Source: Lysobacter luteus (GTDB lineage: Bacteria; Pseudomonadota; Gammaproteobacteria; Xanthomonadales; Xanthomonadaceae). Taken from it: DNA of 64,000 bases. The first letter of the stretch is position 1. Each line of letters begins with the position of its first letter. The stretch is from positions 1,044,001 to 1,108,000 of the forward strand of contig NZ_OU015430.1 of the NCBI RefSeq assembly GCF_907164845.1. The letters run 5' to 3'. Both the position numbers and the translations under genes were made by a program. Shown here in pieces: positions 43,049 through 61,388 of this stretch. A model generated the notes under the pieces. The model worked only from the letters and a program-made list of their open reading frames with translations, did no database searches and was not told the origin of the DNA.

Positions 43049-43387
43049 TCAGCCCACGGCCGAGGCGACGGCCAACAGTGCCACCAGCCCGCCGAAGAAC
43101 AGCACCGCGGCCAGCACGCCGATGATCGCCAGCGCCATCATCGAGTAGCCGAGCACCAACCCGGCGATGGCCAGGCCATCACCGTCGACGGCACCGGCTG
43201 TGCGCCTGACCTCGGCGCGGGCGAGGTGTCCGGTGATCACCGCCACCAGGCTTCCGACCAGCGGCAGCAGGGTCCACCCCAGCAGGCCGAAGACCAGGCT
43301 GACGATGGCCAGCACGCTGGTCTGCCGGCCAACCGCCGGCGCGGCCGGCGGCGGTGGGGGCAATGGCGGAGGGGTGGGATCGCTCAT
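43049..43387 (-). CDS. DUF4190 small membrane protein
   Basis: A 112-residue protein. The cytosolic N-terminus is Pro-rich ([15 protein letters not shown]). Two hydrophobic helices ([15 protein letters not shown] and [18 protein letters not shown]) flank a short loop with the DUF4190 pattern [10 protein letters not shown] and [11 protein letters not shown]. Function is unknown. The start ATG 43387 lies 13 bases after the AmaB-like stop, with GGAGAA between, and the stop is two bases before pyrD. It is thus embedded in one transcriptional unit. Confidence 0.82.
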
Positions 43388-43400
43388 CGCCCGGTTCTCC

Positions 43401-44933: not shown

Positions 44934-44960
44934 CAAAAAACTCCTTGCGAAACGAATGAA

Positions 44961-45037
44961 TGGCGACCCCGACACGATTCGAACGTGTGACCTTCCCCTT
45001 AGGAGGGGGACGCTCTATCCAGCTGAGCTACGGGGCC
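44961..45037 (-). tRNA. tRNA-Arg (anticodon CCT)
   Basis: A complete cloverleaf on the minus strand: acceptor GGCCCCG/CGGGGTC, D arm GCTC...GAGC, anticodon stem TCCCC/GGGGA with loop CTCCTAA, T arm ACACG-TTCGAAT-CGTGT, and an encoded CCA. The anticodon CCT reads the rare Arg codon AGG. Ten bases upstream lies GATAAT on the same strand. Confidence 0.97.
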
Positions 45038-45125: not shown

Positions 45126-45974
45126 TCAGCCTTCGAGCATCGGCTGGATGCGCTCCATGGTGGCCTGCAGCCGCGCCATGTGGCCCGATTCGCACAGCCG
45201 CACGAACATCCGGTCCAGCAGGTGCTGCAGGGCCGAGCGGTACAGCAGCGGTTCGATGTGGGCGCGGTCGTCATGGGCCGAGACCAGCAGCGAGAGGTCG
45301 GCGTGGGCGCGCAGGGGGTTTGAGTTATGGCGGGTGATGGTCACCACCGTCCCGCCACGCTCGCGGAACAGCCGTCCGATCTGGCACAGCGCCGGCTGTT
45401 TGCCGTGCTCGGAAAACACCAGCAGGACGTCGCCCGGGCCGGCGGCCGATACGCTGGCGGTCATGTGTGCGGTGTCGAAGTTGTGCACGGTGAGGATGCC
45501 CAGCAGTGACAGCCGCAGTGCGATCGCACGGGCGGGGATGTCGTCCTCGCCGAGGCCGATGATGAAGACCTTGCCCCCGGCCGACGCGCCCAGCAGGGCG
45601 GCGACCACCGCCTCGAGCAGCTCGGGCGGATTGATCGAGCGGGTTTCCTCCTCGGCCTGGCTTTTGCGCAGCCACAGCTCCATGCCGGCGTCCGGCGGCG
45701 GCGCGGGCGGAGCGCCTGTGTCGCGGGTGTCTTCGCCATTGTCGGCGCGTGCAATCGCCTCGCCGACCGAATATTTGAGGTCGGGATAGCCCTTGAAGCC
45801 CAACTTCTGGCAGAACTTGACGACGCTGGACTGGCTGATGCCCAGCGCGTTGGCCAATTGCTGCGACGAGTAGTCGCGCAGCAGCTGCGCGTTGTCGAGC
45901 ACGAAGTCGGCGATGCGGCGCTCGATCGCCGACATGCGGTCGCGCTCGGCGCGGATCTTCAGCAGTGCGGACAC
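45126..45974 (-). CDS. RpiR/MurR-family transcriptional regulator with altered SIS site
   Basis: A 282-residue regulator. The N-terminal RpiR helix-turn-helix (LANALGISQSSVVKFCQKLG) is intact. The C-terminal SIS domain (about 130-250) normally binds a sugar phosphate; here its signatures are changed. The first loop reads GLGEDDIPA in place of GxGxS. The second reads FSEHGKQ in place of SxSGxT. Loss of the phosphate-binding serines suggests another ligand. GTG 45974, one base after the epimerase stop, is chosen; ATG 45935 is an alternative. It is the last gene of the NlpC-epimerase-regulator operon and probably regulates it. Confidence 0.88.
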   Translation of the reverse strand: MSALLKIRAERDRMSAIERRIADFVLDNAQLLRDYSSQQLANALGISQSSVVKFCQKLGFKGYPDLKYSVGEAIARADNGEDTRDTGAPPAPPPDAGMELWLRKSQAEEETRSINPPELLEAVVAALLGASAGGKVFIIGLGEDDIPARAIALRLSLLGILTVHNFDTAHMTASVSAAGPGDVLLVFSEHGKQPALCQIGRLFRERGGTVVTITRHNSNPLRAHADLSLLVSAHDDRAHIEPLLYRSALQHLLDRMFVRLCESGHMARLQATMERIQPMLEG

Positions 45975-45975
45975 G

Positions 45976-47085
45976 TCAGGCGGCCGCGCTGCCCGGTATC
46001 GGCTCGAGCCCGCGGATCTCACGGATGCCCAGCCCAGGCGCCTCGCTGACCGAGATCTCCGACTCGTTGAACGTGACCCCGCCCTCGACCGGATCGAACT
46101 GGCACAGCGACGGGCCGTCCAGGTCGATCTTGGTGATCACGTCGGCCTTGGCCACCGCTACGTGTACCGCTGCGGCGACGCTGATGCTCGATTCGAGCAT
46201 GCAGCCGATCATGCACTCGACCTGGTGCAGCGCGGCGATGTCGGCGATCCGGATCGCGTTCGAAATACCGCCGGTCTTCATCAGCTTGATATTGATGATG
46301 TCGGCCGCGCGCAGGTTGATCAGCTCGATCACCTCCATCGGGCCGAACACGCTCTCGTCGGCCATGATCGGGGTGTGCACCCGCTCGGTGACGTAGCGCA
46401 TGCCCTCGAGGTCGCGGGCCTTGACCGGTTGCTCCACCAGCTCCAGCCGCACGCCGGCGTCCTCCAGGGTGGTGATCGCGTAGACCGCCTGCTTGGCGGT
46501 CCAGCCCTGGTTGGCGTCGAGGCGGAGCAGGGCGCGGCTCTCCACCGCGGCGTAGATCGCCTTGATGCGCTCGACGTCGACGCCGATGTCCTTGCCCACC
46601 TTGATCTTCAGCGAGTCGAAGCCGCGCTCCACCGCGCTGATGGAATCGGCCACCATCTTGTCGATGGTGTCCACGCTGATGGTGATATCGGTGGTGATGA
46701 CCGGGTCGCCGCCGCCGAGCATCTTGTACAGCGGCGCGTTGTAGAGCTGGCCCCACAGGTCGTACACCGCGATCTCCACCGCCGCCTTGGCGCTGGAGTT
46801 CTTCTCCATCGAGGTCTGGATCAGCCGGGTGATGCGGTTGAGGTCGGCGATGTCCTCGCCGATGAGCCGCGGCGAGATGTAGTGCCGGATCGCGTCGACG
46901 ATGGAGCCGTGGGTGTCGCCGGTGATCACGGCGGTGGCCGGTGCCTCGCCATAGCCGACCTGGCCTGAGTCGGTGTGCACCATGACCACGATGTCCTCGA
47001 CCCGCTCGACGGTACGCAGCGCGGTCTTGAACGGCGTCTTGAGCGGTACCCGCAGCATGCCGAATTGGATGTCGGTGATCTTCAT
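45976..47085 (-). CDS. L-Ala-D/L-Glu dipeptide epimerase (enolase superfamily)
   Basis: A 369-residue muconate-lactonizing-subgroup enolase enzyme. Catalytic Lys162 (SLKIKVGK) and Lys267 (NIKLMK) lie on either side of the metal ligands Asp190 (RLDANQG), Glu219 (VEQP) and Asp243 (MADES). The DxD motif Asp321/Asp323 (KIDLDGP) marks enzymes that epimerise dipeptides and binds the dipeptide amino group. The expected reaction converts L-Ala-D-Glu from murein to L-Ala-L-Glu for ordinary peptidases. It lies between a secreted NlpC/P60 peptidase and an RpiR regulator, a context that supports murein-peptide use. Confidence 0.92.
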   Translation of the reverse strand: MKITDIQFGMLRVPLKTPFKTALRTVERVEDIVVMVHTDSGQVGYGEAPATAVITGDTHGSIVDAIRHYISPRLIGEDIADLNRITRLIQTSMEKNSSAKAAVEIAVYDLWGQLYNAPLYKMLGGGDPVITTDITISVDTIDKMVADSISAVERGFDSLKIKVGKDIGVDVERIKAIYAAVESRALLRLDANQGWTAKQAVYAITTLEDAGVRLELVEQPVKARDLEGMRYVTERVHTPIMADESVFGPMEVIELINLRAADIINIKLMKTGGISNAIRIADIAALHQVECMIGCMLESSISVAAAVHVAVAKADVITKIDLDGPSLCQFDPVEGGVTFNESEISVSEAPGLGIREIRGLEPIPGSAAA

Positions 47086-47117
47086 GGGTCGTGTGTCGTG
47101 TCCTGTTGGCGACGCGA

Positions 47118-48533
47118 TCAGCGGGAAGACGCGGGCGGCACGTGCGGGCGCACGATGCTGGTCATGCGGTCCACGTAGCTTTCGGTCCGGTTGAACATCA
47201 TCGGCAGCAGCGGCGTGACCGAGACCCCGTTGAGCGCCATGCTGCGCAGGCCGCCGTCGGCGTCGAGCACGCTGCCACCGTTGGTGTCGTGGATGACATA
47301 CGGGGCACCGTCGACGCGGCCGATGACCATCATCACGTGGCCGGGGATGTAGACCAGGTCGCCGACCTGCAGCTGGTCGACCGCCGCCATCCGGGTGGCA
47401 CGGTCGTCGGCGTCGAACGTCACGTGTTCGAGCGCGGGGCTGACAGCCTGCGCACTGGTGTTGCGCGGCAGCTGGACGCCCATGCTGCGGTAGATCTCGG
47501 AGACGAACCCGCTGCAGTCGCGCGCGTTGTACGCATGGCCCCAGCCGTAGCGTTCACCGAGGAACTTGAACGACTGCGCGACCAGGTTGGCACGGGTCAG
47601 TGGCAGGTAGTCGGCGCTGCTGTCGGCGATGCGCGGCAACAGCGCCGGCGCGAAGCCGAGGCTGCCGTCCGCCTCGCGCACCGGCAAGCGGAGGACGTGC
47701 GCCGTGTAGGGGTGCTGGCCGTTGACCGGCTGGTCGGGCAGGGTGTCAGCCAGCGGCACGCGCACGCCCATGTCGAGTTGCAGCTGCGAGACGCGCGGCT
47801 CCTCGCGGGTAAAAACAGTGTGTTCGGTGGCGCCGGTAATGACGCGGTAGGGCGACGCGTCGACGTGGCCGAACACTGCCTCGGCGCTGCCTTCGGCCAC
47901 GTGTCGTTTCTCGATCCATGCGGCGTAGCGCGGGCTGACGACGAACAGCCAGTCGCCGTCGGCGCTTTCGTGCGCGATCACCACCGGGGTGCCGGGGAAC
48001 AGCGCGCTTTCCTGCAGCCGGTCGATATCGGTCTCGCCCGCGCGGCTGAACATGCGCTGCGCGGTCGGGAAAGTGCGCAGTGCGGCGCGGTGCACCACGA
48101 GGCCGTGGCGCGTCGGCTGGCTCGCGGGGATGGCGTCGAGCGCGAGGTTGTCGACCATCGCATCCAGCACCGTGTCCGGCACCGGCCGGCCTTCGACGTC
48201 CCACCGTCCGCTGCTGGGACGCTCGGACAGGTCCTCGATCAAGGCGCGCACGGTGCCGGCATCCAACGTCCCGGGCAGTGCACGCAGGTCGTGCATCGAG
48301 CCGTCCAACGCCCATAGGCGGGTGTTCTGGGCCTGGATCGCGTTGCGGTCCATCAGCACGGCATCGGGCGTTTCCAGCCGCTCCAGCCAGAACGCCGGGG
48401 TCAGGTGCGCCGGCTGGATGCCGACCACGCCGTGTGCCGGGATGGCGGTGACCGGCTCCCTGGCGGCGAGCGGCTGGGCAACCAGCAACGCAAGCGCGAG
48501 GGCCGCGAGGAACGGGTGCAGGCGATTCTTCAT
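47118..48533 (-). CDS. secreted NlpC/P60 peptidase with SH3-like domains
   Basis: A 471-residue protein with a signal peptide (cleavage near PLAA, residue 24). Residues about 130-300 hold SH3-like segments (VVHRAALRTFPTAQR, WLFVVSPRYAAWIEKRHVA). The C-terminal NlpC/P60 domain (about 315-450) has Cys340 (NARDCSGFV), His399 (GHVMMVIG) and His414 as catalytic residues. Architecture and size match YkfC-type gamma-D-glutamyl peptidases, which release L-Ala-D-Glu from murein peptides. That product is the substrate of the epimerase encoded 32 bases downstream. ATG 48533 is chosen because it starts a proper signal peptide. Confidence 0.9.
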   Translation of the reverse strand: MKNRLHPFLAALALALLVAQPLAAREPVTAIPAHGVVGIQPAHLTPAFWLERLETPDAVLMDRNAIQAQNTRLWALDGSMHDLRALPGTLDAGTVRALIEDLSERPSSGRWDVEGRPVPDTVLDAMVDNLALDAIPASQPTRHGLVVHRAALRTFPTAQRMFSRAGETDIDRLQESALFPGTPVVIAHESADGDWLFVVSPRYAAWIEKRHVAEGSAEAVFGHVDASPYRVITGATEHTVFTREEPRVSQLQLDMGVRVPLADTLPDQPVNGQHPYTAHVLRLPVREADGSLGFAPALLPRIADSSADYLPLTRANLVAQSFKFLGERYGWGHAYNARDCSGFVSEIYRSMGVQLPRNTSAQAVSPALEHVTFDADDRATRMAAVDQLQVGDLVYIPGHVMMVIGRVDGAPYVIHDTNGGSVLDADGGLRSMALNGVSVTPLLPMMFNRTESYVDRMTSIVRPHVPPASSR

Positions 48534-48695
48534 GGAATGTCGGCGGCGCGCGCCGCCCAGGTGCGAAGGGCTGCCAACAGGATACGGGGCTGCCTCGCCG
48601 GTGAAGGCGAGGGCCCGGTCGCGCGGGTGGGTGGGTCCGGTCCCCAAGACGTCTTCCCCCATGTCGGTCGTTTGTGCGCTGCGGAATACGCGATT

Positions 48696-48701
48696 CTTAT
48701 A
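48696..48701 (-). promoter_or_regulatory. extended -10 promoter for the NlpC/P60 operon
   Basis: On the minus strand the sequence TGATATAAG contains an extended -10 (TGn) and TATAAG, five of six to consensus. It lies in a short AT-rich patch unlike the surrounding DNA. It would give a leader of about 156 bases to ATG 48533. Confidence 0.5.
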
Positions 48702-48724
48702 TCACAGCAAACAGGAATAATTTA

Positions 48725-48753
48725 TTGACCCGATCCAAGTCGCGTGCTACACA
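48725..48753 (+). promoter_or_regulatory. sigma-70 promoter for the transglutaminase-like gene
   Basis: TTGACC (48725-48730, five of six) and TACACA (48748-48753, three of six) are 17 bases apart and predict a start near 48760, 30 bases before GTG 48790. It lies back-to-back with the minus-strand extended -10, within 30 bases. Confidence 0.5.
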
Positions 48754-48789
48754 CCGTTCACGAATGGTTATCCGTAGGGGAAGCAACGG

Positions 48790-50334
48790 GTGGACTGGGT
48801 TCGGGACGTCACCGCCGCAAAACACATCAGACCCCGCGCGGGACGCGGGCTGATCGCCTGCGCCGCGTTCGTGGCAGCGGTGCTGGCGTTCGGATCGGTC
48901 GCGGCCGAACCGGACACTCCCGCTGGGAACCAGCGGCTGGATTCCGTCGTGTCGATGGTGGATAGCGACAGGTTCAAGGCGGCCGAAACCGCGATCGACG
49001 CCGCACTTGCCGACCCGGCACTCACTGTCGCTGACCGCGATGCGCTGCTGTTCCAACGCGAGCGCATGCGTCGCATCCTGATCGACTTCCGGCTCGACGA
49101 GGCCGAAGTGCTCTCCCGGCTGCGCAAGGCGATCCCCGACCTGGGCGACGCGGAGTTCGCCCGCTGGAAGGCGGCCAACCTGATTGAACACCGGGTGATC
49201 GACGGGCGCACGCTGTATTTCGCGCGCGCGGTGCCCAACCTGTTCCGCCTCAGCCCTGAAGCGGCCGCGCGCCGCGCCGATCCGGCACCCTTCAGCGAAG
49301 GGCCGATGGAGTCTCCCAATGCCCACCACGCGGCTGTCGTCGAGGCCGCCCGCGAGACGGGGCAGGCCAGCGTGCTGCCGCGGCGGGTGCAGGTCACCCA
49401 GTCGATCACGGTCGACGCGGACGCGGTGCCCGCCGGCGAGACGGTCCGGGCGTGGATCCCGTTTCCGCGCGACATCCCCGGCCAGCAGCAGGACATCCGC
49501 CTGCTTGGAAGCATCCCGGCAGAAGCCACCGTCGCACCTGAGCCGACCGCGCAACGTACCGTTTACATGGAACAGGTGGCTCGCGCGGGCGAGCCGACCG
49601 AGTTCTCCATCGACTACGAACTGACGCTGTTGGCCCAGCGCCACGCCATCGACCCGGACAAGGTGGTCCCGGCCCCGGCGACCGCCGAGCTGGCCGCGCA
49701 CCTGGGCGAGCGCCCGCCGCACATCGTGTTCACCCCGGCGCTGCGTGCGTTCTCCGAGAAGTTCGTTAACGGCGAGACCAACCCGTACCGGATCGCGCAG
49801 AAGCTGTTCGCCGCGGTCGACGACATTCCTTGGGCCGGTGCGCGCGAGTACTCGACGATCACCAACATCAGCGACTACGCGCTGCACGCCGGCCACGCCG
49901 ACTGCGGCCAGCAGACGCTGCTGCTGATGGCATTGCTGCGCCTCAACGGCATCCCGGCGCGCTGGCAGTCGGGCATGGTCTATTCCGAAGGCGACTACTG
50001 GAACCTGCACGACTGGGGCTGGATGTACCTGGCGCCGTACGGCTGGGTGCCGATGGACGTGACCACCGGCCGGTTCGAAGGCGCGACCGCCGACAGTGGT
50101 GCCGACCTGGAATGGTTCTACCTGGGTGGCCTGGATGCTTACCGGATCGCCTTCAACGATGACTACGGCACCGGGTTTGTCCCGGCCAAGCAGCATTTCC
50201 GTTCCGAGACCGTCGACTCCCAGCGGGGCGAGGTCGAGTGGGACGGCGGCAACCTGTACTTCGACCAGTGGGACTACGACTTCGAAGCACGGATCCTGCC
50301 CGACACCGCCAGGACGGCGCGCAGCAACGACTGA
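48790..50334 (+). CDS. exported transglutaminase-like protein
   Basis: A 514-residue protein. A long N-terminal region precedes the export segment (LIACAAFVAAVLAFGSVAA, residues 21-39). The C-terminal transglutaminase-like core has Cys372 (GHADCGQQ), His407 (WNLHDWGW) and Asp423 (PMDVT), the complete papain-like triad. Bacterial members are often peptidases or amidases and not cross-linkers. The start GTG 48790 follows AGGGGAAG; no ATG fits the signal segment. It precedes the Oar-type receptor by 72 bases on the same strand and could act on imported or wall-derived peptides. The substrate is unknown. Confidence 0.85.
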   Translation: MDWVRDVTAAKHIRPRAGRGLIACAAFVAAVLAFGSVAAEPDTPAGNQRLDSVVSMVDSDRFKAAETAIDAALADPALTVADRDALLFQRERMRRILIDFRLDEAEVLSRLRKAIPDLGDAEFARWKAANLIEHRVIDGRTLYFARAVPNLFRLSPEAAARRADPAPFSEGPMESPNAHHAAVVEAARETGQASVLPRRVQVTQSITVDADAVPAGETVRAWIPFPRDIPGQQQDIRLLGSIPAEATVAPEPTAQRTVYMEQVARAGEPTEFSIDYELTLLAQRHAIDPDKVVPAPATAELAAHLGERPPHIVFTPALRAFSEKFVNGETNPYRIAQKLFAAVDDIPWAGAREYSTITNISDYALHAGHADCGQQTLLLMALLRLNGIPARWQSGMVYSEGDYWNLHDWGWMYLAPYGWVPMDVTTGRFEGATADSGADLEWFYLGGLDAYRIAFNDDYGTGFVPAKQHFRSETVDSQRGEVEWDGGNLYFDQWDYDFEARILPDTARTARSND

Positions 50335-50406
50335 ATCACTTCGATCAATCCACGCGACGGCCCTGCCAAGCGCAGGCCGATCACCGACCAGAACGCCGGA
50401 GGGGGC

Positions 50407-53400
50407 ATGAAGAACAGGAACCTGCACAGAAGCGCGCTTTCGATCGCCATGGGGCTCTGCCTCGCGGCACTGACGCCGGTGGCGATGGCCCAGGACGGCG
50501 CGGTGGTGGGCGTGTCCGAGGCGGGCGCCCAGGTCACCGTGCGCAATCCCCAGACCGGCTTCAGCCGCACGGTCACCGCCGATGCCAGCGGCAACTACCG
50601 GTTCTCGTACCTGCCGGTGGGAACGTACGAGTTGCAGGCCAGCGCCAATGGCGAGCCCGTCGGCGAACCGGTGCAGGTGCGCGTCGGCCTCGGCAGTGCG
50701 ACCTACGTCGGCGCCAGCGACGACGTCACCAGCCTCGGCGCGGTGCAGGTGATCGGGTCGCGGGTCATCAATGCGGTCGACGTCAGTTCCACCGAATCGG
50801 CCACCAACGTCACCGCCGAACAGATCGAGCGGCTGCCGGTCGAGCGCAACGTCAGCTCGGTGGCACTGCTGGCGCCGGGCGTGGCCGGTGGCAGCGCCGG
50901 CTTCGGCGGCATCTCGTTCGGCGGCTCGTCCGTGGCGGAGAACGCGTTCTACGTCAACGGCCTCAACGTTACCGACTTCTATAACCGCATCGGCTTCTCC
51001 GAGGCGCCGTTCGACTTCTACGAGGAGTTCCAGGTCAAGACCGGCGGCTACTCGGTCGAGTTCGGCCGGACCACCGGCGGTGTCGTCAACGCGGTCGCCA
51101 AGTCGGGCACCAACGAGTTCCATTCCGGCGGCAAGGTCGTACTCGGCCCGCGCGAGTGGGAGTCTTCCCGGCGCGACAGCTACTTCGAGGGCGAGCGCTA
51201 CCTCACCCGCAGCCACGACACCACCGACTCGACCCGGATGAACATCTGGGCCTCTGGGCCGCTGGTGCAGGACCGCCTGTTCTTCTTCGCGATGTACGAA
51301 GGCCGCCAGGTCGAGCCCGAGAGCACCAACAACGTCGGCACCAGCTTCACCCGCGGGACCTCCGACGACGGGTTCTGGGGCGCGACCATGGACTGGCAGG
51401 TCACCGACAACAACCTGCTCAGCCTGATGGCGTTCTCCAACGAGAACCGCCTCGACAGCAGCACCTACGCCTACGACTTCGACACCGATGAGATCGGCGA
51501 CAAGATCAGCGACCGCTACACCGAGGCGGGCGGCACCAACTGGGCGCTGACCTGGACGTCCTACCTCACCGACAACCTGTCGATGAAGGTCCTGCACGGC
51601 CAGACCGAGCGCAAGGACATCGGCGCGTCGCCCAACGACGCCACCTGCAACTTCGTCTCCGCCGGCACCGGCGTGCCGGATCCCGGTGTGCCGCTGGGCT
51701 GCACCAGCAACCTCAGCATCTACGACCGGCTCGACGAGCGCGAGCAGACGCGCGTGGACTTCGAATGGTCGCTGGGCGACCACCGCCTCCGCTTCGGCCT
51801 GGACCGCGAGAGCAACACCTCCGACCTCAGCCAGGCCTATTCGGGCCCGGGCGGCATCCAGTACGGCGTCACCGCGACCACGCCCGGCGCGCAGATCCCC
51901 GACGCGGGCATCGTCCCGGACGGTTACTTCGCCTACGTCCGTGCGCGCCAGTACGAGATCTTCGGCAACTTCGAGTCGACCAACAACGCGTGGTACATCG
52001 AGGACAACTGGTCGGTCACCGACGACCTGGTGCTCAACATGGGCATCCGCAACGAGGCCTTCGACAACAAGGACGGCCTGGGCGCGACCTACATCGAGAT
52101 GGACGACATGTGGTCGCCGCGGCTTGGCTTCTCGTGGGACGTCCGTGGCGACGGCACCACCAAGCTGTTCGGCAACGTCGGCCGCTACTTCCTGCCGGTC
52201 GCCAACGTCATCAACATCAAGCAGGGTGGCGCGCTGCTCGACGCGCGGACGTTCTACGGCTTCGAGGGCTGGGAGATCCGCGAGCACAACGGGGTTGAGT
52301 ACGCGTTCCCGATCCTTGGCGAGCAGTTCGGCTTCGACAACAGCCAGGGTGACGGCACCGTCGGTGACCTGCGCGCCGAGGTCGACGCCGACATGGACCA
52401 GGTCTACCAGGACGAGCTGATCCTCGGCTTCCAGCAGCAGCTCAGCCAGGCGTGGTCGTGGGGCGTGCGCGGCATCTACCGCAAGCTCAACAACGCCATC
52501 GACGACATCAACATCACCGCCACGCATTGCGGGCGGGTCGGCAGCAGCTGGGTGATGGCCAACCCGGGCGAGGAGCTGACGATCTGGGGCGACACCGACT
52601 GCGACGGCGTCGATGACGGTTACCTCACCATCGACACCGCGCAGGCGGGGTACTGGACCGAGGCCGACAACTACGTCTACACCGACGGCGAATGGGAGTA
52701 CGTCGACTCCACGCCGACCGGCCAGCGCGGCTGGGTCAAGCCGCGGCGCACCTACAAGGCGCTGGAGTTCCAGGTCGACCGCGCGTGGGACGAGAAGTGG
52801 ATGTTCAATGGCTCGTACACGCTGTCGTGGAACGAGGGCAACGCCGAGGGGCCGGTCAACACCGATACCAACTTCGGCGATACCGGTCGCACCGAGAACT
52901 TCGACGACCCGTTCGTCAACCTCGACGGCTACGGCCCGCTGGCCAACGACCACCGCCACCAGATCAAGCTCCGCGGCACCTACGCGGTGACCGACAACTG
53001 GCGCGTGGGCGCCACGGTCGATGCCAAGTCCGGCGGCCCGATCACCGCGTTCGGTGTCGGCAACCCGTACAACTGGAAGAGCTACCACAGCTACTACCTG
53101 TGCGTTGAGAACTGCACCCGTCCGACCGATGCCGAGGAAGGCGATACCTGGAGCACCGCAGACCGCGTGTTCGAGCACTCGCCCCGCGGAGACGCCGGCC
53201 GGATGCCGTGGACCGTTGATATCGGCGCGAGCGTGACCTACCAGCGCTCGTTCGGCCTGGCCGACTTCCAGGCCAAGCTGGCGGTCTACAACCTGCTCAA
53301 CGACCAGAAGCCGATCTGGGTCTACCAGGAGCTTGAGCCCGGCGTCGGCAGCCGCGACCCGTACTTCGGCCAGGAGCGCTTCCTGCAGTCCCCGCGCTAT

Positions 53401-53430
53401 GCACAGCTGACGCTGTCCCTGTCGTACTGA
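50407..53430 (+). CDS. Oar-type TonB-dependent outer-membrane receptor
   Basis: A 1007-residue receptor. The signal peptide ends about residue 28 (TPVAMA). A carboxypeptidase-regulatory-like domain (about 30-105; VTVRNPQTGFSRTVTADASG) is followed by a plug domain (about 115-230) and a beta-barrel ending in aromatic residues (LTLSLSY). This is the Oar arrangement seen in Lysobacter, Xanthomonas and Myxococcus, which take up or transport large ligands including proteins and peptides. The Shine-Dalgarno GGAGGGGG lies just before ATG 50407. A strong terminator follows. Confidence 0.93.
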   Translation: MKNRNLHRSALSIAMGLCLAALTPVAMAQDGAVVGVSEAGAQVTVRNPQTGFSRTVTADASGNYRFSYLPVGTYELQASANGEPVGEPVQVRVGLGSATYVGASDDVTSLGAVQVIGSRVINAVDVSSTESATNVTAEQIERLPVERNVSSVALLAPGVAGGSAGFGGISFGGSSVAENAFYVNGLNVTDFYNRIGFSEAPFDFYEEFQVKTGGYSVEFGRTTGGVVNAVAKSGTNEFHSGGKVVLGPREWESSRRDSYFEGERYLTRSHDTTDSTRMNIWASGPLVQDRLFFFAMYEGRQVEPESTNNVGTSFTRGTSDDGFWGATMDWQVTDNNLLSLMAFSNENRLDSSTYAYDFDTDEIGDKISDRYTEAGGTNWALTWTSYLTDNLSMKVLHGQTERKDIGASPNDATCNFVSAGTGVPDPGVPLGCTSNLSIYDRLDEREQTRVDFEWSLGDHRLRFGLDRESNTSDLSQAYSGPGGIQYGVTATTPGAQIPDAGIVPDGYFAYVRARQYEIFGNFESTNNAWYIEDNWSVTDDLVLNMGIRNEAFDNKDGLGATYIEMDDMWSPRLGFSWDVRGDGTTKLFGNVGRYFLPVANVINIKQGGALLDARTFYGFEGWEIREHNGVEYAFPILGEQFGFDNSQGDGTVGDLRAEVDADMDQVYQDELILGFQQQLSQAWSWGVRGIYRKLNNAIDDINITATHCGRVGSSWVMANPGEELTIWGDTDCDGVDDGYLTIDTAQAGYWTEADNYVYTDGEWEYVDSTPTGQRGWVKPRRTYKALEFQVDRAWDEKWMFNGSYTLSWNEGNAEGPVNTDTNFGDTGRTENFDDPFVNLDGYGPLANDHRHQIKLRGTYAVTDNWRVGATVDAKSGGPITAFGVGNPYNWKSYHSYYLCVENCTRPTDAEEGDTWSTADRVFEHSPRGDAGRMPWTVDIGASVTYQRSFGLADFQAKLAVYNLLNDQKPIWVYQELEPGVGSRDPYFGQERFLQSPRYAQLTLSLSY

Positions 53431-53442
53431 GCCTCACCCCCT

Positions 53443-53476
53443 TGGCGGCCTGCAGCGGCGGGCCGCCATCTTTTTT
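53443..53476 (+). terminator. rho-independent terminator of the TonB receptor gene
   Basis: TGGCGGCC (53443-53450) pairs with GGCCGCCA (53461-53468) around a ten-base loop and is followed by TC and six T residues. It separates the receptor from the M19-S12 gene, which must have its own promoter or depend on read-through. Confidence 0.88.
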
Positions 53477-53486
53477 CGCGGGCAAC

Positions 53487-53498
53487 GGCCACGTGGCC
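53487..53498. promoter_or_regulatory. 12-bp palindrome before the M19-S12 gene
   Basis: GGCCACGTGGCC is a perfect palindrome, 27 bases upstream of ATG 53525 and just after the receptor's terminator. It could be an operator; no -35/-10 pair is convincing here. Chance occurrence in GC-rich DNA is possible. Confidence 0.3.
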
Positions 53499-53524
53499 GG
53501 TCCGCCCAGGAGGCCGAGCCTGCG

Positions 53525-56215
53525 ATGAGACCGTTCCTTCCGTTGTGCGCACTCGCGCTGGCGTTGTCATGCGATGCCCGGGCTGCCGACCCGTTGACCA
53601 TCGACACCCACGTCGACATCCCGGCCGACTACATGCGCGACGCGCGCTTCGACGTCGGCACCGACACCGCGCTGAAGGTGGACCTGGGCAAGATGGAGCG
53701 CGGCGGCCTCGATGCGGCCTTCTTCGTGATCTACGTCGAGCAGGGCCCGCGCACGCCGGAGGGTTACACCGAGGCGATCGCACAGGCGGAGCGCAAGTAC
53801 TCGGCCATTGAGACGATGCTCGAGCGCTACCCCGACCGGATCCGGCTGGCCACGACGCCGGCGCAGGTGCGCGCCAACCACGCGGCCGGCGTGCTGTCGG
53901 CCATGATCGGGATCGAGAACGGCTACTCGCTCGGCCTCGACATCGGCAATCTCGACGCCGCCTACCGTCGGGGCGCGCGTTATATCGGACTCACCCACAC
54001 CGGTCACAACGACCTGTGCACGAGTTCCGGTGCCCGACCGGAGTTCGGCGATGTTCCAGCGGGCGACGTTGGCCTGAGCCCATTCGGGCGCGAGGTGGTG
54101 CGGCGCGCGAACGCGTTGGGGATGATGGTCGACGTCTCGCATGCGTCGGATGCGTGCGTGCGCGACGTTCTGGCGTTGTCCGCGGCCCCCGTGATTGCAT
54201 CGCACTCCTCGGCGCGGGCACTGGCCGACCATCCGCGCAACCTCGATGACTCCCTGCTGCGCGCGATCGGCGCGCAGGGCGGGGTGGTGCAGGTGGTCGC
54301 CTACACCTACTTCCTGAAGCTCGACCCGGCCCGCGAAGCGGCCGAGGCGGCACTGCAGGCGCAGGTCGCGCGCGAAGCCGGGGCTGACGGGTTCGACAGC
54401 GAGCTGCACGAGCACCTGCCGGCATACGTTGCCGGCGTGGCGCGGATCGAACAGGAGCACCCGATCGCCACGCTGGAAGACTATCTGGACCACATCGAGC
54501 ACGTGGTGGATGTTGCGGGGATCGACCACGTCGGGATTGCGTCGGACTTCGACGGCGGAGGTGGCATCACCGGGTGGATGGATGCTACCGAGACCGCCAA
54601 CGTCACCGACGGCCTGCGTCGACGTGGTTTCGACGACACGCAGATCGCGCAGCTGTGGGGCGGCAACCTGCTGCGCGTCTGGCAGCAGGCCGCCGACCTC
54701 GGCCAGGCCCGCGGCGCGATGGGGTTCTATGACCGCGTGGTCGACGACGTGATGGCGCACTACGACCTGCCCGGGCTGGCGCTGGGCGTGATCGAGAACG
54801 GCGAAGTGGTCTACCGCGGCACCCGCGGCGAGACCGTCGCCGGTTCCGGCGAAGCGGTGGATGCGGACACACTGTTCAAGATCGCATCCAACACCAAGGC
54901 GATGACCGCCGCGGTGCTCGCGCGGCTGGTCAACGCCGGCAAGCTGGCGTGGGACGACCCGGTGGTCAAGCACCTGCCGCAGTTCCGCATGCACGACGCG
55001 TGGGTCACCCGCGAGATCCAGGTACGGGACCTGCTGATCCACAACGCCGGCCTGCGCGAAGGCGCCGGCGACCTGATGTTGTGGCCCGAGCCGAACCACT
55101 TCACCCGCGACGACATCCTCGCCGGCCTGGCGCACCTCCAGCCGCAGCAGAGTTTCCGTTCGGGTTACGCGTACGACAACCTGCTTTACGTGGTCGCCGG
55201 CGAAGTGGCCGCCGCGGCCGGCGGCGCTTCGTACGAGGAGCTGGTGCGACGCGAGGTGTTCGCGCCGCTGGGCCTGACGCGATGTCGCGTGGGTGCGTTC
55301 GACCGGGAAGCCACCGGCAACGTGGCCCAGCCGCATACCCGTGTCGATGCGGGCAACGTGGCCATGCGGCTCGACCCGCCCCAGGTCCCGGCCATCACGT
55401 CGGCGGCCGCCGGGGGCATCCGCTGCAGCCTCGACGACATGCTGGCGTGGGCCGGCAACTGGCTGGCGCCGACGCCTGCGCATCTGGCGTGGCTGCCGGC
55501 GGAGCAACGCCTGCCACTGTGGACGGCGCATACGCCGATGCCGGTCTCCCAGCGACGCCGCGATTGGGACGACACCCACTTTTACGCCTACGGCTATGGC
55601 TGGCGCCTGGCCGATGTCGACGGGGAGTGGAGCGTGTCGCACACCGGCACGCTGGGTGGCATGTATTCGCAGTTGCACCTGCTGCCTGACCTCGACAGCG
55701 GCTTCGTGTTCATGATCAACGGCGATGCCGACGAGGCGCGCACGGTGCTGAACCAGGTGCTGGTCGAACACCTGACGCCGGATGGGGAAGGGCGGGACCT
55801 CGGCGCGGTCGTTGCCGCGCTGCAGGCCCGGCAATCAGGCGCCGATGCCGCCGCCGTCGTGCCTGACACCTCGTCCCGCCAGCCGGCTTCGGCCGCCGGG
55901 ATGGCACCGTGGCTCGGCACCTGGCGCGACCCGTGGTTTGGCGACGTCACGATCTGCGCGGTCGACGACCGCGTGGCGTTCCGTTCGGCCAAGTCGCCGC
56001 GCCTGAGCGGCGACCTGATGCGCGTGGGCGACCGCTACCTGGTCGACTGGCACGCCGACCATGCCGAAGCCTGGGCCGATTTCAGCCAGGAGGCCGGCAT
56101 CCGCCGGCTGGGGATGGCCAAGGTCGATCCCGATGCGGACTTCAGTTACGACTACGAAGACCTCGCGTTCGTCCGTACCGGTGACTGTGCCGGGCCATCG
56201 GCGAGTGGAGGCTAG
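53525..56215 (+). CDS. exported M19 dipeptidase fused to S12 serine hydrolase
   Basis: An 896-residue protein with a signal peptide (about 1-21). Residues 25-395 are an M19 (renal dipeptidase) domain with metal ligands His29 and Asp31 (DTHVD), Glu131 (GIENG), His206 (DVSHAS) and His227 (ASHSSAR). Residues about 400-770 are an S12 beta-lactamase-like domain with Ser455-Lys458 (SNTK), Tyr550-Asn552 (YDN) and His706-Gly708 (HTG). A DUF3471-like tail follows (about 800-885). Each domain is full length and has complete active sites, so this is a true fusion and not a frameshift. M19 enzymes cleave dipeptides including those with D residues; S12 enzymes act on D-amino peptides. Confidence 0.92.
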   Translation: MRPFLPLCALALALSCDARAADPLTIDTHVDIPADYMRDARFDVGTDTALKVDLGKMERGGLDAAFFVIYVEQGPRTPEGYTEAIAQAERKYSAIETMLERYPDRIRLATTPAQVRANHAAGVLSAMIGIENGYSLGLDIGNLDAAYRRGARYIGLTHTGHNDLCTSSGARPEFGDVPAGDVGLSPFGREVVRRANALGMMVDVSHASDACVRDVLALSAAPVIASHSSARALADHPRNLDDSLLRAIGAQGGVVQVVAYTYFLKLDPAREAAEAALQAQVAREAGADGFDSELHEHLPAYVAGVARIEQEHPIATLEDYLDHIEHVVDVAGIDHVGIASDFDGGGGITGWMDATETANVTDGLRRRGFDDTQIAQLWGGNLLRVWQQAADLGQARGAMGFYDRVVDDVMAHYDLPGLALGVIENGEVVYRGTRGETVAGSGEAVDADTLFKIASNTKAMTAAVLARLVNAGKLAWDDPVVKHLPQFRMHDAWVTREIQVRDLLIHNAGLREGAGDLMLWPEPNHFTRDDILAGLAHLQPQQSFRSGYAYDNLLYVVAGEVAAAAGGASYEELVRREVFAPLGLTRCRVGAFDREATGNVAQPHTRVDAGNVAMRLDPPQVPAITSAAAGGIRCSLDDMLAWAGNWLAPTPAHLAWLPAEQRLPLWTAHTPMPVSQRRRDWDDTHFYAYGYGWRLADVDGEWSVSHTGTLGGMYSQLHLLPDLDSGFVFMINGDADEARTVLNQVLVEHLTPDGEGRDLGAVVAALQARQSGADAAAVVPDTSSRQPASAAGMAPWLGTWRDPWFGDVTICAVDDRVAFRSAKSPRLSGDLMRVGDRYLVDWHADHAEAWADFSQEAGIRRLGMAKVDPDADFSYDYEDLAFVRTGDCAGPSASGG

Positions 56216-56219
56216 GGCG

Positions 56220-57266
56220 ATGCGTGCATCCTTTACTCTGCTTGCGTCCGCCGCCCTGATGGCCGGTTGCACTACCTCCGCCGAGCGTATCGCCCATGTC
56301 GACGCGGTCATGGAGCGTTACGCCGGTACCGTGCCCGGCGCATCGGTGCTGGTGCTGCATGACGGCCAGCCCGCGATCCGCCGAGCCTGGGGCATGTCCG
56401 ACCTCGAGTCCGGCATGCAGGCGGCGCCGTCGACCAACTACCGGCTTGCATCGGTCAGCAAGCAGTTCACGGCCGCGGCGATCCTGCTGCTCGCCGAGGA
56501 CGGACGGCTGGAGATCGAGGATCCGGTCCGCACGTGGCTGCCGTCGCTACCCGAAGCCACCGCACCGGTCACGATCCACCACCTGTTGAGCCACACCTCC
56601 GGGCTGGTGGACTACGAGGACGTCATCCCGGAATCGATGACCTGGCAGTTGCGCGACGCCGACGTGCTAAGGCTGCTCGAGTCGCAGGACCGCACCTATT
56701 TCGCGCCCGGCAGCGACTACCGGTACAGCAACAGCGGCTATGCGCTGCTAGCACTGATCGTGGAGCGGGCGTCCGGGCAGGATTTCCCGACCTTCCTGCG
56801 CGAGCGGATCTTCCTGCCGCTGGGCATGGCCAACACCCTGGCGTACGTGCGCGAGGGACCCCCGGTGCCCAACCGCGCCTGGGGCTACAGCCTGGTCGAC
56901 GGCGCCTGGCAACGCACCGACCAGAGCCAGACCAGCGCGGTGCTGGGCGACGGCGGCATCTACTCCTCGATCGAGGACCTCGCCCGCTGGGACGCGGCCT
57001 TGTACGACGACCGCCTGCTTTCGCGCACCTCGCGCGCGCTGGCGTTCACCTCTGCCACGACGACCGACGACCCGACGGTTGAATACGGCTACGGGTGGCG
57101 CATTACCGGCCAGAGCCTGTGGCATTCGGGCGAGACCATGGGCTTCCGCAACGTGCTGGTGCGCTGGCCCGAGCAGCGGCTCACGGTGATCGTGCTGACC
57201 AACCGCAACGACCCCGAGCCCTACCGGATGGCGCTGGACATCGCCGAACCCTGGTTGCGCGACTGA
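56220..57266 (+). CDS. S12-family serine hydrolase lipoprotein
   Basis: A 348-residue beta-lactamase/D-Ala-D-Ala-peptidase-like enzyme. The lipobox MAGC gives lipidated Cys17. The active-site motifs are Ser78-Lys81 (SVSK), Tyr169-Asn171 (YSN) and a C-terminal HSGE in place of KTG. That form is common in esterase, aminopeptidase and D-peptidase members and not in true beta-lactamases. The start ATG 56220 is five bases after the fusion gene's stop, so the two are co-transcribed and a second copy of the S12 fold is made as a lipoprotein. Confidence 0.88.
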   Translation: MRASFTLLASAALMAGCTTSAERIAHVDAVMERYAGTVPGASVLVLHDGQPAIRRAWGMSDLESGMQAAPSTNYRLASVSKQFTAAAILLLAEDGRLEIEDPVRTWLPSLPEATAPVTIHHLLSHTSGLVDYEDVIPESMTWQLRDADVLRLLESQDRTYFAPGSDYRYSNSGYALLALIVERASGQDFPTFLRERIFLPLGMANTLAYVREGPPVPNRAWGYSLVDGAWQRTDQSQTSAVLGDGGIYSSIEDLARWDAALYDDRLLSRTSRALAFTSATTTDDPTVEYGYGWRITGQSLWHSGETMGFRNVLVRWPEQRLTVIVLTNRNDPEPYRMALDIAEPWLRD

Positions 57267-57371: not shown

Positions 57372-59900
57372 ATGGACTGGACTTTCCCCGACGTGCCGCC
57401 GGCGCTCGCCCGCGCACTGCCCGTGCACGACACCCGCCTCATCGAACTCGACCTGCCCGCCGCTGGGCCGGGCGTTCGATTGATGGCCGAACGATTCACC
57501 GGTCATGAGGCGGTCTGCGCCGATTTCCGGTTCGAGATCGATTGCCTGTCCGGGTCGGCCGCGTTCGAACCGACCACGCTGATCGGCCAACCGCTGTCGC
57601 TGCGGTTGCAGGTGGCCGACGGCGGGCGCCGATACTGGCACGGCTACTGCACGCGGGTGGCCTCGCTGGGCAGCGATGGCGGGCTGGCGAGGCACCGGCT
57701 CACGATGGAGCCTTGGACCGCGCTGCTGCGGCTGCGGCGCAATGCGCTGGTTTTCCAGGACCTCGATGCGCTCGGCGTGGTGGAACGCATCCTCGATGAC
57801 TACCCGCATGCGGCGCTGAAGGTCGACGTGACCCGGTCGCTGCCGGTCCGCCCGATCACCACGCAGTACCGCGAGAGTGACCACGCCTTCGTGTTCCGTC
57901 TGCTGGCCGACGCCGGACTGGCGTGGCGCTTCGACCACGTGCAGGGCGAGGCCGGTGCGGGCGAAGCCAGCCACGCGCTGGTGGTGTTCGATCGCGATGC
58001 GGAGGCACCGGAGGCGACGCCTGCCGTGTTGCGTTTCCACCGCACCGACATCGCCGAGTCGGAGGACGCGATCAGCCATTTCACCGCGCAGCGGCAGATC
58101 ACCGCCAACGCGTTCACCACGGCGAGTTGGGACCCCGCCCAGGTCGAGGCGGTGTCGGCCGCAGTATCCGGTGACGCCGCAGGGCCACACGTCCCGACGC
58201 TGGAGGTCTACACGGTGCCGCGCAGTGGGCGATTCGCCACCCGCGACGACGCCGAGCGCGAAGCCGGCCTGCGGCTGGACGCGCTGCGCCTGCCACAGGT
58301 CCTGCACCACGGCTCGGGCAGCGGACGGGGCCTCGCCCCGGGCATGGCATTCACCCTGGACGGGCATCCGGGCCTGTCCGGCGAGCGGTTCGTGCCACTG
58401 GCGGTCGAGCACGTCGCGGCCAACAACCTGGGCAGTGGTATCGCCCCATTGCTGGGCCACGCCGAACTGGAGCGCGGCAGTTATCGCAATCGTTTCGTCG
58501 CCGTGCCGCTGGGGACGGCCATCGTGCCGGTGTCGCGTCCCCGGCCGACTGCCCCGGGCGCCCAGACCGCACGCGTCGTCGGGCTACCGGGCAGCAGCGT
58601 CACCAGCACCCGCGACCATCAGGTCCGTATCCAGTTTCCCTGGCAGCGCGGCATAGCACCCAACCGCGGGGGGCTGACGGATACCGGTTCCACCGCGAAT
58701 CCGGACGGTCACGCGCCCGGCGACGACACCGCCGGCACGTGGGTGCGGGTGGCCGAGTGGCAGGCCGGCCCCAATTGGGGCTCCCATCTGTTGCCGCGGG
58801 TCGGCAGCGAAGTCCTCGTCGAATTCATGCACGGCGACATCGATCAGCCCGTCATCACCGGCCAGCTCTACAACGGCGAGGTCGCCCCACCGTTCGCGCT
58901 CGCCGAGGGCAGCAACCACCGCGGTAGCCTGTCGGGACTGCACAGCCAGTCGCACGATGGCAGCGGCACCCAGCAATGGGTGATCGACGACGCCACCGGC
59001 CAGCTGCGCCAGCGCCTGCATACCAGCTTGACCGACAGCCGTCTGGAGCTCGGCTATCTGGTCGAGCACCGCAACGATTCGCGGGGCCGCTTCCGCGGCG
59101 AAGGTTTCGACCTGGCCACCCTGGGTTGGGCCAACTTGCGGGCGGGCGAGGGCATGCTGCTGTCGACGACGGCGCGACCGGCCGCGACCTCGACCCAGCT
59201 CGACATCGCCGAGGCCGTCAGCCAGCTGAAGGGTGCCGTTCGCACCGCGCAGCGACTGGGCGACGCCGCGGAAGCAGCCGGCATCGAGACGTCGGACACG
59301 AACGCGTGCCAGGCCGACCTGATCCGCCTCATCGACCCGCAGCAGGACGGTCGACACGCTGCCACCGTCAACGGCCAGCCTGCCACCAAGCCGGCGAACG
59401 GCCAGCGTGACGGCGGCGACCCCGTCGAGCGGTTCGCCGCGCCCGTCCTGATCGCCGAATCGCCCGACGCCGTCGCGCTTGCAACTCCGGCCAGTGCGGT
59501 TGCCTACGCCGGCGGCCATACCCACCTGACCGCCCAGCAGGACGCCCACCTCGCCGCCGGCCACACGATCGCCGGCGTCAGCGGCGGCAACGTCGCCCTC
59601 TTTGCACAGCGCGGCCCGATCAAGGCCATCGCGGGCAACGGCCCGTTGAGCCTCCAGGCCCACGACGGCCCCTTGGAGGTGCTCGCCGACAGCAGCGTCA
59701 CGCTGACCGCCAACGACGACCGGATCGATGTCCTCGCCAAGAGCCGCATCGTCCTCCAGGCGGGTCAGGCGGAAATCGTGCTCGACGGCGGCGACATCAC
59801 CTTCAAATGCCCAGGCACCTTCACCGTGAAGGCGGGGCAGGTGCCGATGAAGGGTGGAGCAGGGGCCACTGTCCAGTTGCCGGTATTGCCACGCCGGTGA
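57372..59900 (+). CDS. type VI secretion spike protein VgrG with DUF2345 tail
   Basis: An 842-residue VgrG, the trimeric tip of the type VI secretion needle. The gp27-like part occupies about residues 30-380. The gp5 OB-fold and spike follow (HQVRIQFPWQRG, WVRVAEWQAGPNWGSHLLPRVG, VEFMHGDIDQPVITGQLYN, shown in parts). A DUF2345 beta-helix extension ends the protein (about 560-830; VALFAQRGPIKA, ADSSVTLTAND). No effector, adaptor or other T6SS gene adjoins: the next plus-strand feature is a terminator. ATG 57372 has no good Shine-Dalgarno. It is an orphan copy. Confidence 0.93.
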   Translation: MDWTFPDVPPALARALPVHDTRLIELDLPAAGPGVRLMAERFTGHEAVCADFRFEIDCLSGSAAFEPTTLIGQPLSLRLQVADGGRRYWHGYCTRVASLGSDGGLARHRLTMEPWTALLRLRRNALVFQDLDALGVVERILDDYPHAALKVDVTRSLPVRPITTQYRESDHAFVFRLLADAGLAWRFDHVQGEAGAGEASHALVVFDRDAEAPEATPAVLRFHRTDIAESEDAISHFTAQRQITANAFTTASWDPAQVEAVSAAVSGDAAGPHVPTLEVYTVPRSGRFATRDDAEREAGLRLDALRLPQVLHHGSGSGRGLAPGMAFTLDGHPGLSGERFVPLAVEHVAANNLGSGIAPLLGHAELERGSYRNRFVAVPLGTAIVPVSRPRPTAPGAQTARVVGLPGSSVTSTRDHQVRIQFPWQRGIAPNRGGLTDTGSTANPDGHAPGDDTAGTWVRVAEWQAGPNWGSHLLPRVGSEVLVEFMHGDIDQPVITGQLYNGEVAPPFALAEGSNHRGSLSGLHSQSHDGSGTQQWVIDDATGQLRQRLHTSLTDSRLELGYLVEHRNDSRGRFRGEGFDLATLGWANLRAGEGMLLSTTARPAATSTQLDIAEAVSQLKGAVRTAQRLGDAAEAAGIETSDTNACQADLIRLIDPQQDGRHAATVNGQPATKPANGQRDGGDPVERFAAPVLIAESPDAVALATPASAVAYAGGHTHLTAQQDAHLAAGHTIAGVSGGNVALFAQRGPIKAIAGNGPLSLQAHDGPLEVLADSSVTLTANDDRIDVLAKSRIVLQAGQAEIVLDGGDITFKCPGTFTVKAGQVPMKGGAGATVQLPVLPRR

Positions 59901-61290: not shown

Positions 61291-61331
61291 GTGGGTACGG
61301 GTCGGAAACGGACGAAGTTGCCCCGGCGGGC

Positions 61332-61337
61332 GACAAT
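61332..61337 (+). promoter_or_regulatory. -10-like hexamer for the FGE-like gene
   Basis: GACAAT within CGACAATAGC lies in the 98-base divergent gap with rnd, 52 bases before TTG 61389. The -35 is not evident. Confidence 0.35.
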
Positions 61338-61388
61338 AGCCTACTTTCGGCGGGCCCTTCAGGGTGCCGACCGCCAGCAGGAGGACGA

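Follow-up and report, generated by a model that had tools for sequence, protein, structure and literature searches.

A probable RpiR-controlled locus for the catabolism of peptidoglycan stem peptides in Lysobacter luteus and its relatives

Introduction

What is served by a compact set of seven divergent genes that encode a regulator, an epimerase, an outer-membrane receptor, and several exported proteins of peptidase-like families? The genes lie at positions 45126 to 57266 of a 64,000-nucleotide stretch, called the window here, from a complete 2.77-Mb genome of Lysobacter luteus (contig NZ_OU015430.1, positions 1,044,001 to 1,108,000). The closest named relative among the epimerase matches listed was Novilysobacter arseniciresistens, with an enzyme 96% identical to that of the window, which places the organism with Novilysobacter. 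Peptidoglycan is an abundant source of nitrogen and carbon in soils, and to our knowledge dedicated Gram-negative systems for eating peptidoglycan peptides from outside the cell have been poorly described. A search by title and abstract start, with subscription journals largely outside it, found no publication describing this locus.

The original prediction, made from the letters of the window, suggested that the seven genes could jointly scavenge murein peptides. That reading was supported by the gene order in relatives, by the pairing of the transglutaminase gene with the epimerase gene in 55 of 55 genomes, by a control region common to both strands, and by murein enzymes encoded beside the locus in relatives; the type assigned to the NlpC/P60 peptidase was the part that did not stand. 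The locus is quite probably an RpiR-controlled, lysin-led catabolic locus for peptidoglycan stem peptides.

Gene content and conservation of the locus

Domain searches on both strands recovered all seven genes and the families predicted for them. The minus strand carries an RpiR gene of the MurR/RpiR family (45126 to 46022; PF01418, 2.1e-21, and PF01380, 2.2e-11), a YkfB-like dipeptide epimerase gene of the L-Ala-D/L-Glu type in the enolase superfamily (45976 to 47085; PF02746 and PF13378), and a gene for an exported SH3_6 plus NlpC/P60 peptidase, assigned to the DvLysin/PnpA type by domain matches, motifs, and a fold match (47118 to 48533). The plus strand carries genes for an exported transglutaminase-fold protein (48790 to 50334; Transglut_core, with Cys-His-Asp intact), a TonB-dependent outer-membrane receptor with CarboxypepD_reg, Plug, and OMP_b-brl_4 domains, which we take to be of the Oar type (50407 to 53430), an exported fusion of an M19 dipeptidase with an S12 serine peptidase in one 896-residue frame (53525 to 56215), and an S12-family lipoprotein (56220 to 57266). 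Read by eye, the NlpC/P60, transglutaminase-fold, and M19-S12 proteins have signal-like N termini and the second S12 protein has a lipobox; the epimerase has neither. An inner-membrane peptide permease is missing from the genes of the locus, as had been noted.

Conservation was followed in two sets of loci. The named loci surrounded the best 80 of 575 confirmed epimerase matches, a choice biased to close epimerases, and reached at most 10 kb to each side, some ending at contig ends. The 60 family loci reached up to 20 kb around the epimerase and came from 71 other epimerase genomes, 11 of which were left out. The order RpiR-epimerase-NlpC//transglutaminase was kept at 77 of the 80 named and 44 of the 60 family loci, with the Oar gene next at 68 and 43, respectively; co-occurrence of the genes of the two strands, set beforehand as a check, was thus found in relatives. 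Among 119 sampled family genomes, the epimerase was detected in 72 (E 1e-20) and the NlpC/P60 gene in 78, including all 72. The transglutaminase gene was present in 55, all within the epimerase genomes (hypergeometric probability, 4e-19, with kinship ignored).

RpiR was present at all 80 named loci, followed by NlpC/P60 at 79, the transglutaminase at 77, a YkuD-like protein at 72, Oar and an SDF symporter at 69 each, DUF819 at 54, a second diaminopimelate decarboxylase (LysA2) at 53, M19 at 47, S12-DUF3471 at 36, and an APC carrier at none; VanX-like (18) and S12 (15) genes, like the right-hand genes in general, were undercounted because these loci end 10 kb away. The corresponding numbers for the 60 family loci were 49 for RpiR, 57 for NlpC/P60, 47 for YkuD-like, 44 each for the transglutaminase, Oar, and S12-DUF3471, 32 for SDF, 16 for S12, 15 each for APC and DUF819, 14 for LysA2, and 7 for M19. 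VanX-like genes were counted at 42 family loci by loose matching (35% coverage), and clustering gave 23 members. Open reading frames for clustering were chosen automatically, and some genes were assigned to the incorrect strand, as with cluster 13, which lies opposite the epimerase.

Named carriers included Lysobacter, Luteimonas, Pseudoxanthomonas, Dyella, Rhodanobacter, Luteibacter, Frateuria, Dokdonella, and Tahibacter, as well as Steroidobacter, which belongs to another order. In 11 loci that form a divergent group (L083 to L093), the epimerase was the only window gene found, apart from NlpC/P60 at 9, and APC, YkuD-like, or VanX-like genes lay near some of them. Proteins with X-Tfe (XVIPCD) and peptidoglycan-binding domains are encoded close to the epimerase-NlpC pair at two loci of this group, L083 and L084.

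Conservation also bears on whether the locus recycles or remodels the wall of the cell itself and not murein from outside, a reading that is unlikely yet carries some weight. Some members of the YkuD-like and S12 families act on the cell's own wall. In Chlamydia, YkfC-type enzymes serve to recycle that wall (PMC9928106), and a Bacillus report considers them in the context of wall recycling (PMC2954226); EcgA, treated as an ortholog of DvLysin and PnpA, remodels the Salmonella wall (PMC7860986), each according to sections of the report cited. Against own-wall recycling, the locus is accompanied by a TonB receptor and several exported peptidases, and no epimerase was detected at E 1e-20 in 47 of the 119 family genomes. 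In addition, no AmpG- or Mpl-type match was seen among the cluster representatives scanned, in a block annotation that was not exhaustive and with no search aimed at these proteins.

The shared control region

The reading as an RpiR-controlled catabolic locus draws on the one control region between the divergent genes, which is common to both strands. Comparison of intergenic regions revealed two inverted repeats there, 31 bp apart and assigned to no strand: box 1, GAATACGCGATTC, a GAATA-n-ATTC repeat at 48684 to 48696, and box 2, GAATAATTTATTGAC, at 48715 to 48729, with the dyad AATAA-T-TTATT. Seven-mers of one site recurred in up to 117 of 122 intergenic regions, for which simple shuffles expect 1 to 2; the 122 include 13 duplicates, since named and family loci overlap in genomes. 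The consensus of the conserved site, GAATAAATTATTGAC, is itself a dyad. Across the 109 distinct regions, the best site had 0 mismatches to the consensus in 41, 1 in 60, 2 in 4, and 3 in 4. The nearest match in a control set of 595 random 530-bp stretches had 4 mismatches, which was found in 4 of them. The GAATA of box 1 started 31 bp upstream of box 2 in 102 of the 109 regions; the spacing was 30 bp in 4 and 18 bp in 2, and box 1 was missing in 1.

A site with at most 2 mismatches was present at 108 of 113 loci with RpiR and at 0 of 9 loci without it. Four of the five misses were sites with 3 mismatches, and the fifth, L054, was an artefact of copy choice: its second NlpC copy had been used, and another scan showed its site with one mismatch. 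That second copy, in genome G012, sits at the distal end of the locus. The nine site-less loci also lack the transglutaminase and form one divergent group, so that absence of the site alone cannot name RpiR as the binder. RpiR is put forward as a candidate repressor of both strands that would bind the two dyads. The window RpiR carries HTH_6 and SIS domains, as MurR does, and the SIS domains of known regulators bind phosphosugars. No sugar gene occurs among the seven, although the regulator (45126 to 46022) has the SIS domain.

A possible −35 element, TTGACC at 48725 to 48730, overlaps box 2 in a promoter reading by eye, and a sigma-70 promoter scan of the control region gave nothing above threshold. 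Box 2 of the window was the sole match to AATAATTTATTGACC at up to 2 mismatches in the whole genome, in a search that left aside box 1 and looser matches. A wide RpiR regulon based on the box 2 sequence was accordingly not seen.

The NlpC/P60 peptidase and the epimerase

The open reading frame of the NlpC/P60 peptidase extends to 48662, and codon 44 (48533), where the signal-like peptide begins, is the likelier start. The protein has the Cys-His pair and Tyr-x-Trp motif of YkfC-type peptidases; RYGWG, RDCSG, and PGH are the commonest forms of its catalytic motifs, and Y, W, DCS, and PGH were invariant in 37 aligned sequences. The original prediction made it a peptidase of the type that frees L-Ala-D-Glu, which was not borne out. 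The position of BcYkfC Asp256, a residue that reads the free N terminus of L-Ala and is important for specificity according to sections of the structural report (PMC2954226), is Asn401 in the window, and PRNT stood there in 58 of 58 sequences and in all 37 aligned. By sequence, the best solved relatives were DvLysin (3m1u, 2.8e-28) and PnpA (6sqx, 4.9e-15), with BcYkfC (3h41) at only 0.0035. A structure model from the window and named-locus sequences (pLDDT 88.6) matched 3m1u chain A with TM scores of 0.73/0.77 over 458 columns and 6sqx with 0.72/0.71, both at full length, and the clip, two SH3b, and NlpC/P60 domains of DvLysin and PnpA were matched over the whole model. The Bacteroides proteins 4r0k (BT_1314), 3pvq, and 3npf fit less well (TM 0.45 to 0.46 by query length). 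On the basis of the Asn at the Asp256 position and of the fold, a YkfC-type identity was rejected. In a 2015 mBio paper, lysin and recycling types of NlpC/P60 are reportedly told apart by few residues. PnpA cuts γ-D-Glu–mDAP in MurNAc-linked, glycan-bound muropeptides, according to sections of its description (PMC7860986). Judged from the modeled fold, the exported NlpC/P60 enzyme probably starts digestion on wall material and frees peptides bearing meso-diaminopimelate (mDAP).

The closest solved relative of the epimerase was the L-Ala-D/L-Glu epimerase of Bacillus subtilis (1jpm; 347 bits, residues 1 to 354, 8.4e-103), and the catalytic motifs KxK, DAN, EQ, ADES, and DxD were all present. 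RLDANQ occurred in 61 of 61 epimerases and DLD in the 60 shown of these 61; Arg24 and DxD take part in substrate choice. The window enzyme is thus a predicted L-Ala-D/L-Glu epimerase. Irregular copies were seen in relatives. The epimerase match at G081:C7:105558-106660 is split over two overlapping frames; either the copy is broken or the sequence is in error. On contig C4 of genome G057 (L064), which shows a partial duplication, two close epimerase copies are separated by about 22 kb, and the second adjoins DUF819 without NlpC.

The plus-strand proteins

In the transglutaminase-fold protein, C333, H368, and D384 (mature numbering), presumably the Cys-His-Asp triad of the transglutaminase-like superfamily, were invariant in 39 sequences. 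The best fold match of its model (pLDDT 91.0) was a putative Cytophaga cysteine protease (3isr, E 1.4e-14); matches to pseudomurein endoisopeptidase were weak (best E 0.0096) and were not used. In one genome outside the order (L215), the gene is fused to a YkuD domain, which supports a murein role for the protein. A sequence search for solved relatives of the Oar receptor found none at E 0.01.

The M19 part of the fusion protein (PF01244, 1.3e-95) retains H9, D11, E111, H186, and H207, as numbered in the M19 piece, in 52 sequences; these residues, in the pattern HxD, E, H, H, are taken to be the metal ligands. A DUF3471 match in the fusion was below threshold (25.5 versus 29.3 bits). The fusion is shared with the close relative N. 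arseniciresistens (L098); M19 and S12 are separate open frames in L034, L043, and L065, and the S12 part mostly has a signal-like N terminus of its own in the other relatives shown, for example, L130. The S12 lipoprotein, with the lipobox-like LMAGC, likely starts at 56220, 4 nucleotides past the fusion stop, and its best NCBIfam similarities, both below cut-off, were to D-aminopeptidase and AmpH.

Accessory genes in relatives

The block of relatives adds genes for LysA2, a VanX-like M15 protein, a GltP-like SDF symporter, a YkuD-like protein whose His and Cys are conserved, and DUF819, all assigned at the Pfam level; the APC carrier gene, where present, sits left of RpiR. One representative LysA-family protein (L037), encoded between Oar and S12, scored 479.7 bits against a curated cut-off of 297.9, and the VanX-like protein scored 137.5 against 27 bits for Pfam Peptidase_M15. 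Near full-length LysA2 at at least 60% identity was found in 17 family genomes, with 15 copies in the locus by coordinates; the remaining 2 lay on a different contig, the assembly being fragmented. A second, distant LysA was present elsewhere in 16 of these 17 genomes. A partial LysA match (63%, 128 residues) occurred in a genome without the epimerase (G024). Signal-like N termini, read by eye, were seen in 0 of 7 LysA2, 7 of 7 M19, and 6 of 7 VanX proteins, a pattern that suggests digestion outside the cytoplasm, with epimerization and mDAP decarboxylation inside.

A link to MurNAc catabolism outside the order

In a sample of the phylum, the epimerase was present in 11 of 349 genomes (E ≤1e-40). 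Three genomes outside the order (G433, G461, and G241) had epimerases 49 to 66% identical to it, with NlpC adjoining in all three. Two of the corresponding loci, from more distant gammaproteobacteria, carry genes for wall-sugar catabolism. The order in L213 was DUF819-NlpC-epimerase-YkuD-SSF-MurQ-NamZ-MurR-like, where SSF is a sodium-solute symporter and MurQ exceeded its cut-off (457 versus 255 bits). L215 comprised RpiR, the transglutaminase-YkuD fusion, epimerase, NlpC, an antiporter, VanX-like, NamZ, MurQ, and SSF. In L214, the third of them, genes for a YkuD-like protein and an S13 carboxypeptidase take the place of NamZ-MurQ. NamZ-MurQ beside epimerase-NlpC in L213 and L215 ties the peptide module to wall-sugar catabolism. 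NamZ was found in 2 of the 119 family genomes; given this rarity and its absence from the window genome, the locus there would serve the peptide part alone.

These neighbors also bear on general scavenging of D-amino-acid-containing or other peptides, with no specificity for murein, which is considered improbable. The S12, M19, and transglutaminase-fold families are broad, and the solved relatives of the transglutaminase-fold protein are distant, 3isr being the best, as such a general role would allow. LysA2, the VanX-like protein, an epimerase of the L-Ala-D/L-Glu type, a lysin-type NlpC, and the NamZ-MurQ neighbors all indicate murein instead.

DUF819 and inner-membrane import

DUF819 proteins have a CPA/AT transporter fold (sections of PMC8396727), and part of another report leaves a Neisseria M15-DUF819 pair without an assigned function (PMC12671195); the parts covered of these two reports name no substrate for the family. 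DUF819 of the locus clade directly adjoined NlpC in all 54 named loci that have it and in 14 of 15 family loci. At all 4 places where a second clade was seen, it adjoined DgcA/DUF1611 or an epimerase, although one of the 4 (L218) had been found via its epimerase. For a common third kind, the stretches retrieved at 19 of 19 places contained no searched reference gene. DUF1611 presumably corresponds to DgcN of the D-glutamate catabolism pathway, and the name DgcA comes from an NCBIfam match below cut-off (351 versus 400 bits). In L216, L217, and L232, a DUF819 relative lies beside a racemase of the epimerase superfamily. The epimerase-like protein of G093 had a higher score as DgcA than as an L-Ala-D/L-Glu epimerase, and for this reason both this protein and the corresponding one of G019 were left out of the count of murein epimerases. 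In L212, DUF819 stands beside RpiR-NamZ-MurQ-SSF-alanine racemase, without the epimerase.

These related clusters point to DUF819 as a candidate importer. A wider proposal is offered tentatively: in a lineage-wide murein-peptide system, the first two DUF819 clades might carry L-Ala-γ-D-Glu or D-Glu compounds, and the transglutaminase-fold protein might be a new murein-peptide hydrolase. L218, on contig C41 of genome G461, which also holds a NamZ-linked locus, is a second, divergent cluster of amidohydrolase, S12, M19, S12, a 33%-identical epimerase, DUF819, and aminotransferase genes.

Flanking genes

The next gene rightward of the locus encodes a VgrG-type spike of the type VI secretion system (T6SS) (57372 to 59900). 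This adjacency would fit a sensing or attack module, in which murein fragments signal lysed prey or the lysin is a weapon and nutrition is secondary, and PnpA degrades the walls of rival Vibrio species according to sections of its description (PMC7860986). VgrG did not travel with the locus, being found at 0 of 80 named and 0 of 60 family loci, digestion and catabolic genes dominate the set, and box 2 had no second genome copy at up to 2 mismatches (box 1 lay outside that search), which together make such a module very unlikely. The same VgrG counts rule out the locus as part of a T6SS island.

To the left lies an aldehyde dehydrogenase gene on the minus strand, which was found at only 7 of 80 named and 6 of 60 family loci when scored through the open reading frame opposite it (43167 to 44990). 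About 3 kb leftward of the locus, a MurB-like gene (MurB_C plus FAD-binding; 40954 to 42099) adjoins a dihydroorotate dehydrogenase-like gene. A gene for an FGE-sulfatase-domain protein lies at 61284 to 63305.

A proposed pathway

In the proposed catabolism of stem peptides, the exported NlpC/P60 lysin would cut γ-D-Glu–mDAP in wall material or muropeptides, and the exported transglutaminase-fold, S12, and M19 enzymes, joined in relatives by VanX- and YkuD-like proteins, would trim the peptides; M19 suits L-Xaa–D-Xaa dipeptides such as mDAP-D-Ala and L-Ala-D-Glu, and VanX suits D-Ala-D-Ala. The Oar receptor would take peptides across the outer membrane, and inner-membrane import in relatives would proceed via DUF819 and/or a glutamate-type (SDF) or APC carrier. 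The epimerase, acting in the cytoplasm, would convert L-Ala-D-Glu to L-Ala-L-Glu for ordinary peptidases, and in relatives the second LysA would decarboxylate mDAP to lysine. RpiR, on the two dyads between the divergent genes, would control both strands in response to a ligand.

Several observations weigh against this pathway. The predicted NlpC type would leave L-Ala-D-Glu on MurNAc, so that free dipeptide for the epimerase would need an amidase, and none is encoded among the seven genes. Curated cut-offs were missed by the window RpiR (MurR equivalog NF012026, 79.2 versus 408 bits) and by the epimerase (NF041118, 255.5 versus 500 bits; NF011708, 108.5 versus 343 bits), whose activity therefore stays a prediction. 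In relatives, they were missed by the VanX-like protein (NCBIfam, 180.7 versus 320 bits), the SDF symporter (GltP, 126.9 versus 638 bits), and, just below the Pfam cut-off, the YkuD match of L041 (22.3 versus 23.4). The locus of the window itself has no LysA2, SDF, DUF819, YkuD-like, or VanX gene, and searches of the window genome for the M15/VanX family and for NamZ gave no match. The SDF protein of that genome is only 29% identical to the locus SDF and its DUF819 belongs to another subfamily, which rules out both as orthologs of the locus proteins. Judged by gene content, the copy in the window is a reduced version of the locus.

If correct, the proposed pathway would supply a gene set with its operator and receptor, suggest a function for DUF819, and provide a marker of murein feeding in Lysobacterales.

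Comparison with known systems

The nearest parallel is ykfB-ykfC of Bacillus (BsYkfB, 1jpm; BcYkfC, 3h41), in which genes for the epimerase and an NlpC/P60 γ-D-Glu–diamino acid endopeptidase likewise adjoin; the B. cereus peptidase has a predicted signal peptide, and ykfB-ykfC-type pairs were noted in several other bacteria, as described in sections of PMC2954226. In the window, by contrast, the NlpC is of the DvLysin/PnpA type with Asn for Asp256, the regulator is of the RpiR family, and the Dpp/Opp genes are replaced by genes for a TonB receptor, transglutaminase, M19, and S12 proteins, with LysA2, VanX-like, and DUF819 in relatives. The modeled NlpC resembles DvLysin (3m1u) and PnpA (6sqx) in its full-length fold, with an N-terminal clip and SH3b domains, and in its catalytic Cys-His. 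Its identity to them is 22% and 15 to 16%, respectively, and it shares the PRN motif with DvLysin, where PnpA has PRS. No such locus was reported around DvLysin or PnpA in the sections of the literature covered, those on the pnpA genomic region being outside them.

The E. coli MpaA-YcjG-PepD route, which cuts γ-D-Glu–mDAP, epimerizes L-Ala-D-Glu, and hydrolyzes the product (sections of PMC2954226), has the same chemical logic, but the metallopeptidase MpaA makes the cut there and an exported NlpC/P60 enzyme would make it here. MurNAc catabolism (NamZ, MurQ, and MurR) shares the RpiR/MurR regulator family and adjoins the peptide module in L213 and L215, whereas NamZ was not found in the window genome or in 117 of the 119 family genomes. 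The D-glutamate cluster DgcN-DgcA likewise places a DUF819 relative by a racemase of the epimerase superfamily, although that DUF819 belongs to a different clade. As predicted from its genes, the locus would carry out murein-peptide catabolism of the ykfBC and MpaA-YcjG kind, in a rebuilt form that uses an exported lysin, a TonB receptor, and a single control region.

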